Assembly: GCA_029062895.1 (NCBI GenBank)
Contig: JAIDPF010000067.1
Location: 1 to 64,000, forward strand
Source: Lachnospiraceae bacterium
Lineage (GTDB): Bacteria > Bacillota > Clostridia > Lachnospirales > Lachnospiraceae
Direction of reading: 5' to 3'
DNA: 64,000 nucleotides
This document shows, piece by piece, positions 21,720-60,664 of this stretch; positions within the stretch are counted from its first letter, which is position 1, and each line of letters opens with the position of its first letter. A program made the translations under genes and the position numbers. Under the pieces are notes generated by a model, which saw nothing but the letters and a program-made list of their open reading frames with translations, was not told where the DNA came from and ran no database searches.

Positions 21720-22004
21720 TTATTCCATTGTGAAAATGCCTGAAAAACCGGTTATCTCAAAGATCTCCATAATCTGGGGGTTTACGCCGGTAATGATCAT
21801 AGAGCCATCCTTTTGATGGAGTTTTTTTTGAGTTGCAAGTAATACTCGTAAACCAATAGAACAGATATAGACTGTATCCGTCATATCAATTACAATATGG
21901 GAATTCTGACCGTCCCCCATGGCTTCTTTTAGCAGTTCTTCAAATTTTGGCGCATTAATGGCGTCGATTCTTGACATTGCTCTTACAGTAATTTCCTCTG
22001 TCAT
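21720..22004 (-). CDS. STAS-domain protein (anti-sigma factor antagonist-like)
   Basis: IDAINAPKFEELLKEAM...HIVIDMTDTVYICSIGLRVLL; start trimmed to MTEEITV because the upstream part of the ORF is the repeated leader element. Confidence 0.8.
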   Translation of the reverse strand: MTEEITVRAMSRIDAINAPKFEELLKEAMGDGQNSHIVIDMTDTVYICSIGLRVLLATQKKLHQKDGSMIITGVNPQIMEIFEITGFSGIFTME

Positions 22005-22084
22005 ATTAATAACCATGCCTTTCCGTAACCTGCGAATTTGGGCCGCAGGCACAAATTTGCGTGTGAAAAATTTATTTTTCACAC
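22005..22084 (-). promoter_or_regulatory. Repeated leader element, copy A (upstream of STAS gene)
   Basis: GTGTGAAAAA-TAAA-TTTTTCACAC, GCAAATTTGTGCCTGCGGCCCAAATTCGC, AGGTTACGGAAAGGCATGGTTATTAATATG. Confidence 0.8.
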
Positions 22085-22148
22085 TATCCTCCATGCTACG
22101 ATTGTTTTTTATAGCTTTGCTTTGAGCAGACAATCTCTTTATACGGAC

Positions 22149-23722: not shown

Positions 23723-23847
23723 ACGATCCTCCTTTTTTACTTTTCAAAAAGTATACCATAGTTTCCCGGAAATTGTAAGGGCTGCGCTAAATTTAAAATT
23801 TTCGATAAATATTTTTGTATTTCATGAAATATATGCTATACTGATTA

Positions 23848-23940
23848 GTGTGAGAAGAAGTTCTATTGCTCACAGCAAAGGCTGTTTCGCAAAGAACTTC
23901 TATATCTCACACAGAAAAACGCCAAAAGCAGGCGTTTTTC
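23848..23940 (+). ncRNA. Candidate small structured RNA or leader upstream of parB
   Basis: TTGTAT-N16-TATACT promoter (23815..23842), outer stem gtgtgaga/agaagttct with agaacttct/tctcacac, inner acagc-aaag-gctgt, terminator aaaaacgcc-aaaagca-ggcgttttt. Confidence 0.6.
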
Positions 23941-24075
23941 AATCTCATCGCGTGTCATTGCAGCAAGCGCTCTGACATGGAGGATTAGCATGAAAATCTA
24001 TTTGAGTCGTCAAAGGCGGAATGGGAATAGTAAAGTATTTCAAAAGCAGAAGCATGATTGGAGAAAGGGGCAGGC

Positions 24076-25025: not shown

Positions 25026-25089
25026 TCGCAAATATTGTGCCTGCGGCAGTATGTATTCGCAGGTTGTGAAAAGGTATGGTTTATTAATT
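25026..25089 (+). promoter_or_regulatory. Repeated leader element, copy B (upstream of lipoprotein gene)
   Basis: TCGCAAATATTGTGCCTGCGGCAGTATGTATTCGCAGGTTGTGAAAAGGTATGGTTTATTAATT then ATG. Confidence 0.7.
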
Positions 25090-26784
25090 ATGAAAAAATT
25101 AGTATTTATTATGGTTTTCATTTTTTTGTGCGGGTGTACGTTACAAGAAAATCATGAAGAAGATTATGACGGAAATTATGGAATAATCAGTGAAAATAAG
25201 CCGGATAACATGGTTTCAGAAAATGCGGCAGAAAATGTGGTATCAGAAGATGAAATTATACCGGAAACTGTGATGACGGATGATACGGAAGATATGGAAG
25301 ATATTTTTCCTAAAAGGTATTATGCAGTATTAGCAAGTCAGAAATCGACATGGTCATTAGACGAACGGTACGGGCAATATTATGAAGATCTGGGAGGCTC
25401 CTGGCTAAGTTATTATGATTCCTATATGAACGTACTTGACAGGGATTCTGAGATCATTGATTTCTCAGCATATGCAACCACGAGGAGAAACATGTTGTTG
25501 CAAAAATATGCTTCTCTGGCAGAAGCTCTGAGAGATCCGTCACTGAATGCGGAAATGGAAGCTGTCAGGACGGCATATGGTGTGGATGATGAAACCATAG
25601 GAAGTTATGTGGATAGTTACATGCAGCGTGCGGACACCTGTGTTTATAGTTTTGTCAGAAAATGCATGATAGGGGAATTGGAACAAGATAAGCCTTATAG
25701 GGATTTCTATTTGAAGACATGTCTTTATAATGGATATTTTGGCTACACTTTTGATTCGCAGACCGGGGAGAGGCTGGCGTTGACAGATATTGTAACGGAT
25801 CAGGAACAGCTGCCTGAGCTGATCATGCAATCTTTGGAAGAAACCTATCAGGAAACATTTCCGGAAGGAGTGGAGAGTATGATCACAGAACTGCTGCAGG
25901 ACGATGCACTTGCATGGTCTCTGGGATATCAGGGAATCACCTTCTATATACAGTCAGGACAGATCGGCATTGATGATATCCGTATTTATCAGGCGCTAAT
26001 TCTTTTTGCGGCAGAACCGGATCTCTTTGTGGAAAAATATTGTGATATTCCGGAATATTATGCAATGCAATATGACTTTATGGAAGGGGTAGTAGCGGAT
26101 ACTGATAATGATGGTAAAGCAGAGCGGATCGATATGGGAAATTGGGATAATGTTGCAGACAAATTTGATGAGTGGGTATGGCTTAACAATAATGAGTGTC
26201 TTACCCTGATATCCGGAAGAAACGGAGATATGTTCCTATACCTTACTGCAGATGGCCAGTTGGACTATACGGGAGAAGCAGCCATTTATGATCTTTCAGG
26301 GGAAGAACCTGCTTATATTTATACGGAAAGTGGATTGATTGAACGAAATAGGCTGATAGATCCTGCCTGTGTAATTAACAGGCTTTACGACGAGCATATG
26401 CTTATTGTAGGAGGTGGGTTTGCCGACGCATATCATATATCGGATATCAGCGAAACCGGTATTCCGGAAGAAAGTATCCATACATATACATGGTTTTACA
26501 GTAGATGGAATTTACTGTATCAGGTTGAGAATTCCATAGAAGGAAGAATTGTAAATGTGGATGGAGAGGATCAGGGAGAAAGCATTACTCTGACAGAAGG
26601 TATGTGGGTCATGGCTTTTAGGACAGATCTGCATTCGTATATTGATTTTATCTTAGAAGATGGGCGGCTTTGCCGGCTAACAGTAGAAGAAGAGGATGGT
26701 ATCTGTTATTATGAGGGTCAGTCATTGTCAAATTACTTTGATATTATGTACACAGATAGCTATCTAACATATGGCCAAGAATAA
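25090..26784 (+). CDS. Lipoprotein with DUF3298/RsiV-like region
   Basis: Lipobox FIFLCGCTL; YFGYTFDSQTGERLALTDIVTD...LPELIMQSLEETYQE. Confidence 0.65.
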   Translation: MKKLVFIMVFIFLCGCTLQENHEEDYDGNYGIISENKPDNMVSENAAENVVSEDEIIPETVMTDDTEDMEDIFPKRYYAVLASQKSTWSLDERYGQYYEDLGGSWLSYYDSYMNVLDRDSEIIDFSAYATTRRNMLLQKYASLAEALRDPSLNAEMEAVRTAYGVDDETIGSYVDSYMQRADTCVYSFVRKCMIGELEQDKPYRDFYLKTCLYNGYFGYTFDSQTGERLALTDIVTDQEQLPELIMQSLEETYQETFPEGVESMITELLQDDALAWSLGYQGITFYIQSGQIGIDDIRIYQALILFAAEPDLFVEKYCDIPEYYAMQYDFMEGVVADTDNDGKAERIDMGNWDNVADKFDEWVWLNNNECLTLISGRNGDMFLYLTADGQLDYTGEAAIYDLSGEEPAYIYTESGLIERNRLIDPACVINRLYDEHMLIVGGGFADAYHISDISETGIPEESIHTYTWFYSRWNLLYQVENSIEGRIVNVDGEDQGESITLTEGMWVMAFRTDLHSYIDFILEDGRLCRLTVEEEDGICYYEGQSLSNYFDIMYTDSYLTYGQE

Positions 26785-28231: not shown

Positions 28232-29404
28232 ATGGCAAGAGAAATTGAAACAAAGTGCCTGCATCTGGAGGAAGAAGAGGGAGGAAGCCAAAATTATGGG
28301 GCAATCAGTTATCCCATTTTCCAGACGGCAACCTATGCGCATCCCGGCGTAGGGAAAAGCACCGGTTATGATTATAGCAGATTACAGAACCCTACAAGGG
28401 AACATTTGGAAAAAGTGGTAGCTTCATTGGAAAATGGAACAGACGTCTTGGCGCTTACAACAGGCATGGCGGCCATTTCTTTGATGATGGAGCTGTTCCG
28501 GCCGGGAGATCATCTGATTGTGGATGCGGATCTTTATGGGGGCAGCATCCGGCTTTTTAACAACGTATCGAAGAAAAACGGAATTACATTTTCAAGTATT
28601 AACTGTTATAAAGAGGATGTGGAAAGCTATATCAAGGAAAACACAAAGGCTGTTTATATAGAGACGCCGACGAATCCCATGATGAATGTGACGGATATAG
28701 AGAAGCTGGGAAAGTTAGCAAAAAAACATCATTTATTGCTGATCGTTGACAATACCTTCCTTTCCCCATATTTCCAGAACCCGTTGGATTTGGGAGCAGA
28801 TATTGTTGTACATAGCGGGACGAAATATCTTGGCGGCCACAATGACACACTGGCAGGTTTTTTGGTCACAAACAGGGAGGATATCGGTGAGAAGTTCCGG
28901 TTTCTCATTAAGACTACAGGAGCAGGGCTTGCACCTTTTGACAGCTGGCTGATTCTGCGCGGAATAAAAACACTGGGAATCCGTATGGAAAAATCACAGC
29001 AAAACGCCATAACGATTGCAAATTGGTTAAAGGAGCAAAAGGCGGTATCAAAGGTAATCTATCCGGGCCTTCCCACGCATCCGGGCCATGAAATTATGAA
29101 AAAACAGGCAAGAGGATTTGGGGCTATGATCACATTTCAGCTGGAAAGCAAAGAGTTTGCGCAGGCTGTTTTAGAAAAGGTCCGCATGATCAAGTTCGCG
29201 GAAAGCCTTGGAGGTGTTGAAACGCTGATCACTTATCCGACAACTCAGACACATGCAGATGTGCCGAAGGAAGTCCGTGAGAGAAATGGGATTACGGAAA
29301 GTACCTTGAGACTTTCTGTTGGAATCGAAGATGTAAAAGATTTACTGGATGAGCTGGAAGCAGTTTTTGAAGAGATAGAAGGGGACAGATTGAAAAATCT
29401 TTGA
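28232..29404 (+). CDS. Trans-sulfuration PLP enzyme (cystathionine gamma-synthase/lyase family)
   Basis: ALTTGMAAISLMMELF, YIETPTNPMMNVTD, VVHSGTKYLGGHND, RLSVGIEDVKDLL. Confidence 0.9.
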   Translation: MAREIETKCLHLEEEEGGSQNYGAISYPIFQTATYAHPGVGKSTGYDYSRLQNPTREHLEKVVASLENGTDVLALTTGMAAISLMMELFRPGDHLIVDADLYGGSIRLFNNVSKKNGITFSSINCYKEDVESYIKENTKAVYIETPTNPMMNVTDIEKLGKLAKKHHLLLIVDNTFLSPYFQNPLDLGADIVVHSGTKYLGGHNDTLAGFLVTNREDIGEKFRFLIKTTGAGLAPFDSWLILRGIKTLGIRMEKSQQNAITIANWLKEQKAVSKVIYPGLPTHPGHEIMKKQARGFGAMITFQLESKEFAQAVLEKVRMIKFAESLGGVETLITYPTTQTHADVPKEVRERNGITESTLRLSVGIEDVKDLLDELEAVFEEIEGDRLKNL

Positions 29405-29468
29405 TTTTTCAATCGCAATTTGGGCCTGCGGCCCAAATTGCAAGTTATAGAAAGGTATGGTAATTAAT
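29388..29468 (+). promoter_or_regulatory. Repeated leader element, copy C (upstream of MalY-like gene)
   Basis: GATTGAAAAATC-TTT-GATTTTTCAATC and GCAATTTGGGCC-TGC-GGCCCAAATTGC perfect hairpins, then AAGTTATAGAAAGGTATGGTAATTAAT ATG. Confidence 0.85.
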
Positions 29469-33893: not shown

Positions 33894-33969
33894 CCGGAAA
33901 AATTGTGCCTGCGGCATAGCACTAAAGTGTATTAAAGTTTGCAGGTTACGGAAAGGCAAGGTAATTAAT
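33894..33969 (+). promoter_or_regulatory. Repeated leader element, copy D (upstream of mnmA)
   Basis: AAATTGTGCCTGCGGCATAGC...TTTGCAGGTTACGGAAAGGCAAGGTAATTAAT then ATG. Confidence 0.75.
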
Positions 33970-59786: not shown

Positions 59787-60353
59787 CTATCGTAGATTCT
59801 TGATCCCTTGATTGATAAGTTTGGAAGAAAGCTGTATCAATTCCTCCAAGGGCATTTTCTTCCCATCCATGACCCATTGACGGTAGATACCAACGGTTGA
59901 AACCTGTACATACTGGAGGAGGATTCTCTGTGTATATTCATCAAAAGATTGAAACCAGCGTGATTCATGCCAACGGTCATTCATGGTCTGTTCCATGAGA
60001 TCTTTTTGGATAACTCCATAACTTCCGCTGCAGGTAATCCGGTCATAAACTTCACCTGCAGAGGCGGAAAAAGTGAAGAATGCCCGGTTAATCTTATCCA
60101 TGTCTTCGGGAATCCTGTAACCGGCTATCTGCTCCAGATAGCGTGATGAAAAATCAGTCTTCAATTCGCTGAGCAATTCATCCAGATTGTTATAATACTG
60201 ATAAAAGGTCTTTTTGTTGATCATGGCTTGGTCGGACAATTCCTTTACTGTAATGGAATCATATTCTTTCTCACAGATAAGTGCTTCAAAAGCACTTTTT
60301 ATATTGGTGATAGTTCTGCGGATGCGCAAATCCTCTGTTCCATTAAGTTTCAT
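59787..60353 (-). CDS. TetR/AcrR-family transcriptional regulator
   Basis: ITNIKSAFEALICEKEYDSITVKELSDQAMINKKTFYQYYNNLDELL. Confidence 0.93.
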   Translation of the reverse strand: MKLNGTEDLRIRRTITNIKSAFEALICEKEYDSITVKELSDQAMINKKTFYQYYNNLDELLSELKTDFSSRYLEQIAGYRIPEDMDKINRAFFTFSASAGEVYDRITCSGSYGVIQKDLMEQTMNDRWHESRWFQSFDEYTQRILLQYVQVSTVGIYRQWVMDGKKMPLEELIQLSSKLINQGIKNLR

Positions 60354-60447
60354 ATTAATAACTATGCCTTTCTCTCATCCTGCGATATTTGGACCATAGG
60401 CACAAATTCGCGATTGAAAAATAAGATATCAATCTTATTTTTCAATC
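60354..60447 (-). promoter_or_regulatory. Repeated leader element, copy E (upstream of TetR gene)
   Basis: GATTGAAAAATAAGAT-TGAT-ATCTTATTTTTCAATC, GCGAATTTGTGCCTATGGTCCAAATATCGC, AGGATGAGAGAAAGGCATAGTTATTAAT ATG. Confidence 0.8.
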
Positions 60448-60664
60448 TACTCTCCTAAAACTTTAAGTAACTTTTTTGGAGAAAGAGTTACTTATGTGCC
60501 TGATTACAAAAAAGAGTCCATTGATTTGTAACTGTAAAGCAAATATAATTATAATTAAGAAATATGTAACAGTAGTTACATGGTAACACATTAATAAAAT
60601 CAATTCAATAATTTTTTAGAATAAAGATTATTATTATCGGGTTTATGTGTAGGAGGTAAAAAGT

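Follow-up and report, generated by a model that had tools for sequence, protein, structure and literature searches.

A palindromic cassette with its own Shine-Dalgarno-like site recurs between native Shine-Dalgarno sites and start codons in a Lachnospiraceae bacterium

The stretch of DNA analysed here (64,000 nt; hereafter the window) belongs to the genome of a gut bacterium of the Lachnospiraceae, an assembly of 3.07 Mb in 115 contigs (G000). A first-pass annotation of the window had placed five copies of a conserved leader element at 22005, 25026, 29388, 33894 and 60354, and all five were found there. We call this element F1; the window also contains a cassette of a second family, F2. The copies, together with the Shine-Dalgarno (SD) sites associated with them, are as follows.

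22005..22084, minus strand: F1 copy 1, preceding a STAS anti-sigma-factor antagonist gene; GTGTG hairpin, GTGCCTGCGGC hairpin and ribosome-binding site (RBS) tail up to the ATG at 22004
22088..22094, minus strand: native-type SD ATGGAGG, directly 5' of copy 1 (from the sequence and from SD enrichment over copies)
22018..22023, minus strand: copy 1's own SD-like GAAAGG (from the sequence and the conservation of the site)
23844..23988, plus strand: F2 cassette, with ATTAG-TGTGAGAAG hairpins, ending in GACATGGAGGATTAG
25026..25089, plus strand: F1 copy 2, preceding a lipoprotein gene; without an upstream hairpin of the element; start ATG at 25090
29380..29384, plus strand: native SD AGGGG, stranded 5' of copy 3 by insertion, as judged from the empty orthologous site AGGGGGAAACTTACATG in L239
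29386..29468, plus strand: F1 copy 3, preceding a PatB/MalY-like C-S lyase gene; present in the related genome G008, absent from G016
29450..29455, plus strand: copy 3's own SD-like GAAAGG
33894..33969, plus strand: F1 copy 4, preceding mnmA; its second hairpin holds an insert; an F2-type cassette in its place in the G016 orthologue
33951..33956, plus strand: copy 4's own SD-like site, listed as GAAAGG (the mnmA copy reads GGCAAGG)
60354..60447, minus strand: F1 copy 5, preceding a TetR-like gene; 16-bp hairpin, second hairpin and tail up to the ATG at 60353
60451..60456, minus strand: native-type SD AGGAGA, 5' of copy 5 (from the sequence and from SD enrichment over copies)

The STAS, MalY-like and TetR copies share one order of parts: a native-type SD, a perfect hairpin that opens at GTG or GATTG, the GTGCCTGCGGC hairpin, the tail GGAAAGGCATGGTTATTAAT or a near variant of it, and the ATG. 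The upstream hairpin, originally described as a part of every copy, belongs to the element in these three; the stem-loops near the other two, ahead of mnmA and the lipoprotein gene, seem to be the ends of upstream genes. Perfect stems of 10, 12 and 16 bp had been reported, of which the 12 bp (MalY-like) and 16 bp (TetR) hold, while the STAS stem is 11 bp long. Similarly, the tail directly adjoins the start ATG in four of the five copies, and the lipoprotein copy has one additional base in between. The insert in the second hairpin of the mnmA copy is ATAGCACTAAAGTGTATTAAAG. When up to 3 mismatches are allowed, the tail GGTTACGGAAAGGYATGGTWATTAAT matches the window three times, against none in 100 shuffles; the copies at 25026 and 60354 are more diverged, and lie outside these three matches. 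The STAS anti-sigma-factor antagonist, PatB-family C-S lyase and MnmA gene calls were borne out, the TetR call corresponds to a weak FabR match, and the lipoprotein has no NCBIfam family. In the MalY-like copy, hairpin 2 (29415-29441) forms a perfect 12-bp palindrome in G000 and carries two mismatches in G008 (L241), a difference explained by one change per arm, as in quasi-palindrome correction.

Copies beyond the window were located by plain pattern searches, and then fetched as stretches. The pattern GAAAGGYAWGGTWATTAATATG (tail plus start, with no more than 3 mismatches) gives 106 matches in the whole G000 genome, and its reversed version gives none. Leaving out the start codon reduces the matches to 73 (control, 0), and a pattern for the hairpin core gives 86 (control, 2). 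The copies are modular and roughly 78–150 bp long, consisting of (i) a 5' module, which is one of several hairpins (ATTGAAAAATC...GATTTTTCAAT, GTGTGAGAAGAACTTCT... or AACGAATAAATTCGTT), (ii) a core that can carry either of two inserts, and (iii) a terminus that reads GGAAAGG-CATGGTTATTARN-ATG into the gene, placing the SD-like GGAAAGG about 13 nt 5' of the start. The invariant portion is GCAGGTTAYGGAAAGGYATGGTTATTA, and tail-only copies without a hairpin exist. The common 5' hairpin modules, measured from the first TTG or GTG to the core in the 83 copies with a complete 5' end, are 24, 27, 36, 45 and 66 nt long, all multiples of three.

The F2 tail, GACATGGAGGATTAG, has 72 matches, compared with 7 in the control. 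F2 cassettes—such as the one in the window, and those in L209-L238—insert at the same place as F1, that is, at start codons. F1 and F2 can be stacked in a single leader, for example before pth (a gene confirmed by NCBIfam); their tails recombine, CATGG...ATTAG is common to both, and chained cassettes meet at the same TTAG/start junction.

The position of F1 relative to genes is highly regular. An open reading frame of at least 60 codons begins where the cassette ends in 56 of the 67 fully tail-matched copies, 42 of them at an identical start-codon offset; the remaining 11 (~16%) are not directly at the start of a reading frame, and some of these run into an F2 cassette or precede a second SD. 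Orientation is nearly always sense to the downstream gene. Of the 83 copies whose 5' end can be recognised, 57% have an SD-like 4-mer no more than 17 nt upstream of it, compared with 13–18% for intervals further upstream. The downstream genes had been called functionally unrelated, and they are indeed diverse and often core or housekeeping genes: asnS, rpe, ackA, dapB, a FabG-like reductase gene, rimM, plsY, murG, argH, rpsR, purE, folP, xseA, and the genes for thymidylate synthase, MnmA, PatB lyase and SecE.

The distribution of F1 across the family is patchy. Tail matches number 24–51 in each of four close relatives (G008, G012, G016 and G022), and there are none in 30 other congeners or in 63 genomes of other genera. 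A wider draw of Lachnospiraceae found the element in 8/397 genomes (8/334 genera), two of which carry 11 and 18 copies; the named carriers are mainly Lachnospiraceae metagenome-assembled genomes, plus the isolate bacterium C-53. A search of plasmids gave no match to the element, and the exact tail pattern has none in IMG/VR; two partial matches occur in phage records. One record, which comes from human faeces and bears the label 'Bacteriophage sp.' (GenBank MT838376.1, positions 1-420; our L302), has an F1 cassette before a YidC-like reading frame, as judged by eye; it looks like a bacterial contig.

Comparison of orthologous leaders between G000 and the four relatives reveals the same genes with and without the cassette. 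At the MalY-like gene, G016 is empty and reads AGGGGGAAACTTAC-ATGGCTGAG (site AGGGGGAAACTTACATG), while in G000 and G008 the cassette sits between AAGGGGACA and the ATG, the two states differing by 78 nt. At L299:5766, G008 and G012 are empty (the latter reads GGAGAATATATTATG), and the G000 cassette lies between GAGAATA and TATTATG; at L228, G016 is empty and reads GGAGGCTAATATTAATATG. G008, G016 and G022 are all empty at L300:9662, where G000 is filled and a stop follows the first ATG after the cassette, so that G000 probably uses a later ATG. L299:1370 is empty in G008, a state that may equally be the product of a deletion. In the clean insertion cases, the native SD is retained at the left of the cassette and the native start codon at its right. 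An RBS-supplying mobile repeat, as proposed, is thus supported by presence and absence at orthologous genes, and by the conservation of GGAAAGG described below; the accompanying proposal that the repeat also supplies the start codon fails, because the start is native and unchanged at empty sites. No consistent target-site duplication was found: the BLAST alignments overlap by 2 and 4 nt at two L299 sites, and no duplication is evident at MalY or L228.

Other leaders have changed from one cassette state to another. mnmA has an F2 cassette in G016 and F1 in the others, secE has four different cassette arrangements in four genomes, and the FabG-like gene has an additional F2 cassette upstream in G012. 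At L010, G000 has only the tail where G012, G016 and G022 have the full cassette, as expected if the hairpins had been deleted and the tail spared.

No part of the cassette is better conserved than GGAAAGG. Between orthologous filled copies it shows 2/208 mismatches (1.0%), against 89/865 (10.3%, with many gaps) in hairpin 2 and 188/2907 (6.5%) in the first codons of the downstream genes of the same pairs, a contrast that is somewhat inflated because the 30 orthologous pairs are non-independent and because selecting copies on tail similarity introduces a mild bias. The gap between hairpin and SD stays large despite this bias, and suggests purifying selection on the new SD. GAAAGG presumably pairs with the 16S rRNA tail CCUUUC, and translation of the genes behind a cassette would now begin from the new SD.

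We consider it likely that F1 is a non-autonomous, modular, palindromic mobile cassette, which has repeatedly inserted between the native SD and the start codon and replaced the RBS that it disrupted. The cassette would enter the short spacer between the two, in the sense direction and time and again. Insertion at this place would normally sever translation; the gene presumably stays expressed from its native start because the cassette ends in its own putative SD-like site and spacer. The expected outcome is a swapped ribosome-binding site, an unchanged native start codon, and additional hairpins upstream. F2, a related family, appears to act alike, and the two can stack in one leader.

How such a cassette moves is a separate question. 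An enzyme acting in trans would mobilise F1, and the SD-start spacer would be a preferred target rather than merely the place where copies survive. One tentative possibility, which we hold with much less confidence than mobility itself, is that insertion is targeted to the translation-initiation region: the spacer would be recognised in the sense orientation, possibly through the mRNA or ribosome instead of the DNA sequence, with the element rendered harmless by its replacement RBS. Among the fetched copies of the TAGATTGAAAAAT end, which were searched for an autonomous parent, every one continues into a short hairpin or a cassette of F1 or F2, and none into a transposase. Derivation from an IS200/IS605 or REP element was considered and rejected, since the Y1 transposase family (PF01797) does not track F1: it was not found in G008 and G012 (assemblies 88% and 72% complete), and the single G000 copy has no cassette ends nearby.

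Spread could also proceed with no transposase, by short-homology copying or gene conversion among SD-spacer-ATG leaders, followed by retention of the copied piece as a useful RBS. The free swapping of modules, the recombining F1 and F2 tails with their common CATGG...ATTAG, the chaining at a single TTAG/start junction, the four cassette states of secE, and searches that found no mobilising enzyme would all fit such copying. It sits poorly with the clean insertions at MalY, L299:5766 and L228, which have only a few bases in common with the cassette ends. As a general account we judge it rather unlikely; it nonetheless deserves to be taken seriously as a rival, particularly where cassettes are chained. 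Plain convergence on a favoured RBS consensus, involving no repeat element, might explain some of the tail-only copies that have no hairpin. This reading is refuted by the empty and filled sites, and it fits neither the conserved hairpin sequences, nor the lack of matches in 30 congeners, nor the derivation of a tail-only copy by deletion; we give it practically no weight.

The remaining alternatives assign a function to the cassette as RNA or as coding sequence. A widespread cis-regulatory RNA, as entertained in the first-pass annotation, would use its two hairpins as a signal-responsive switch governing access to the downstream RBS, and the sense orientation, constant position, perfect hairpins and alternative CCTGCG/CGCAGG pairing beside the RBS would all suit it. 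That pairing, however, occurs in 686 cells against 684.7 in shuffles. A-C mismatches outnumber G-U pairs by 29 to 11 in hairpin 2, and G-U pairs are wholly lacking in hairpin 1. Selection for base pairing in the sense-strand RNA is therefore not apparent, and the palindromes may be young or maintained at the DNA level. Furthermore, the predicted openness of the SD (GGAAAGG) on folding is 0.55 with hairpins and 0.54 in tail-only copies, and close relatives lose or swap hairpins while keeping the tail and the genes, which have no pathway in common. The hairpins being interchangeable modules with neither covariation nor wobble bias, a regulatory RNA is not supported and appears improbable. The earlier statement that the element corresponds to no named motif stands: Rfam yields no hit for the window at the gathering threshold and nothing credible at E values up to 1, the best being a 25-bit antisense match to SpF01 (cut-off 55). 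A leader peptide or N-terminal extension, in which the native SD drives a start at the cassette's TTG or GTG and translation reads through in frame, strikes us as marginally less probable again. The cassette does begin with TTG or GTG at SD spacing, and its commonest 5' modules are multiples of three in length. Yet the frame is open into the gene in only 19–20 of 83 copies, unlike the open in-frame inserts of the Rickettsia palindromic element type; the other copies stop early, overrun in another frame or stop near the start, and such a reading does not predict GGAAAGG as the most conserved part.

Set against known repeats, the mobile-cassette reading places F1 among the small mobile palindromic repeats. 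F1 has several properties of a MITE, being short, non-autonomous, multi-copy and insertion-polymorphic; terminal inverted repeats were not found, the 5' end being a hairpin and the 3' end GGTTATTAG, which has no inverted partner there. REPs are not known to be restricted to SD-start spacers. F1 does resemble REP/RAYT and IS200/IS605 palindromes in having a short tag beside a hairpin (TTAG in F1; for REP tags, see PMC3733652), and differs from them in that no Y1 transposase tracks it. BOX elements of Streptococcus pneumoniae are likewise small, modular, interspersed repeats near genes, apparently mobile, transcribable and able to contribute the ends of reading frames; they are described as overlapping annotated genes mainly at the 3' end and stop codon, with BOX reading frames that lacked good SD candidates, whereas F1 lies between SD and start codon and brings the SD itself (PMC3049150). 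Rickettsia palindromic elements are also mobile palindromes at would-be disruptive sites where the gene still works, but they are in-frame fusions within reading frames (PMC2229807, PMC10969869), while F1 rescues its gene by a new RBS and does not keep the frame of the cassette. Correia/NEMIS and ERIC elements, both MITEs (PMC2229807), resemble F1 as short non-autonomous repeats that form RNA hairpins within mRNAs, and differ in that neither terminal inverted repeats nor a clear duplication of the target site was seen for F1; our literature search found no record, in the excerpts seen, of their supplying an SD at a start codon. More broadly, the open-access excerpts retrieved describe no SD-carrying repeat inserted in the SD-start spacer—BOX, RPE, Correia/NEMIS and ERIC being the nearest—and in them this landing place is described for no other member of the group.

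On this reading, a mobile repeat may invade essential operons by landing where translation should die and supplying the missing part. Sister species would recently, and independently of one another, have acquired new RBSs at dozens of genes, core ones included, providing a natural series for testing how expression is tuned by the RBS and leader structure. The near-exclusive landing site also poses a testable question: how does so small an element locate start codons? For annotation, there is a risk that an upstream ATG, TTG or GTG inside a cassette is called as the start of the gene.

Other repeat structures were seen near the cassettes. A further dispersed repeat, the third, spans roughly 200 nt at L300:2133-2337 behind an F2 cassette; its centre is palindromic, and partial matches to it number in the tens in G012 and G016. 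In the L048 leader, just 5' of the start, a hairpin unit (gccgtcaaaggcgggtat) has grown to several tandem copies.
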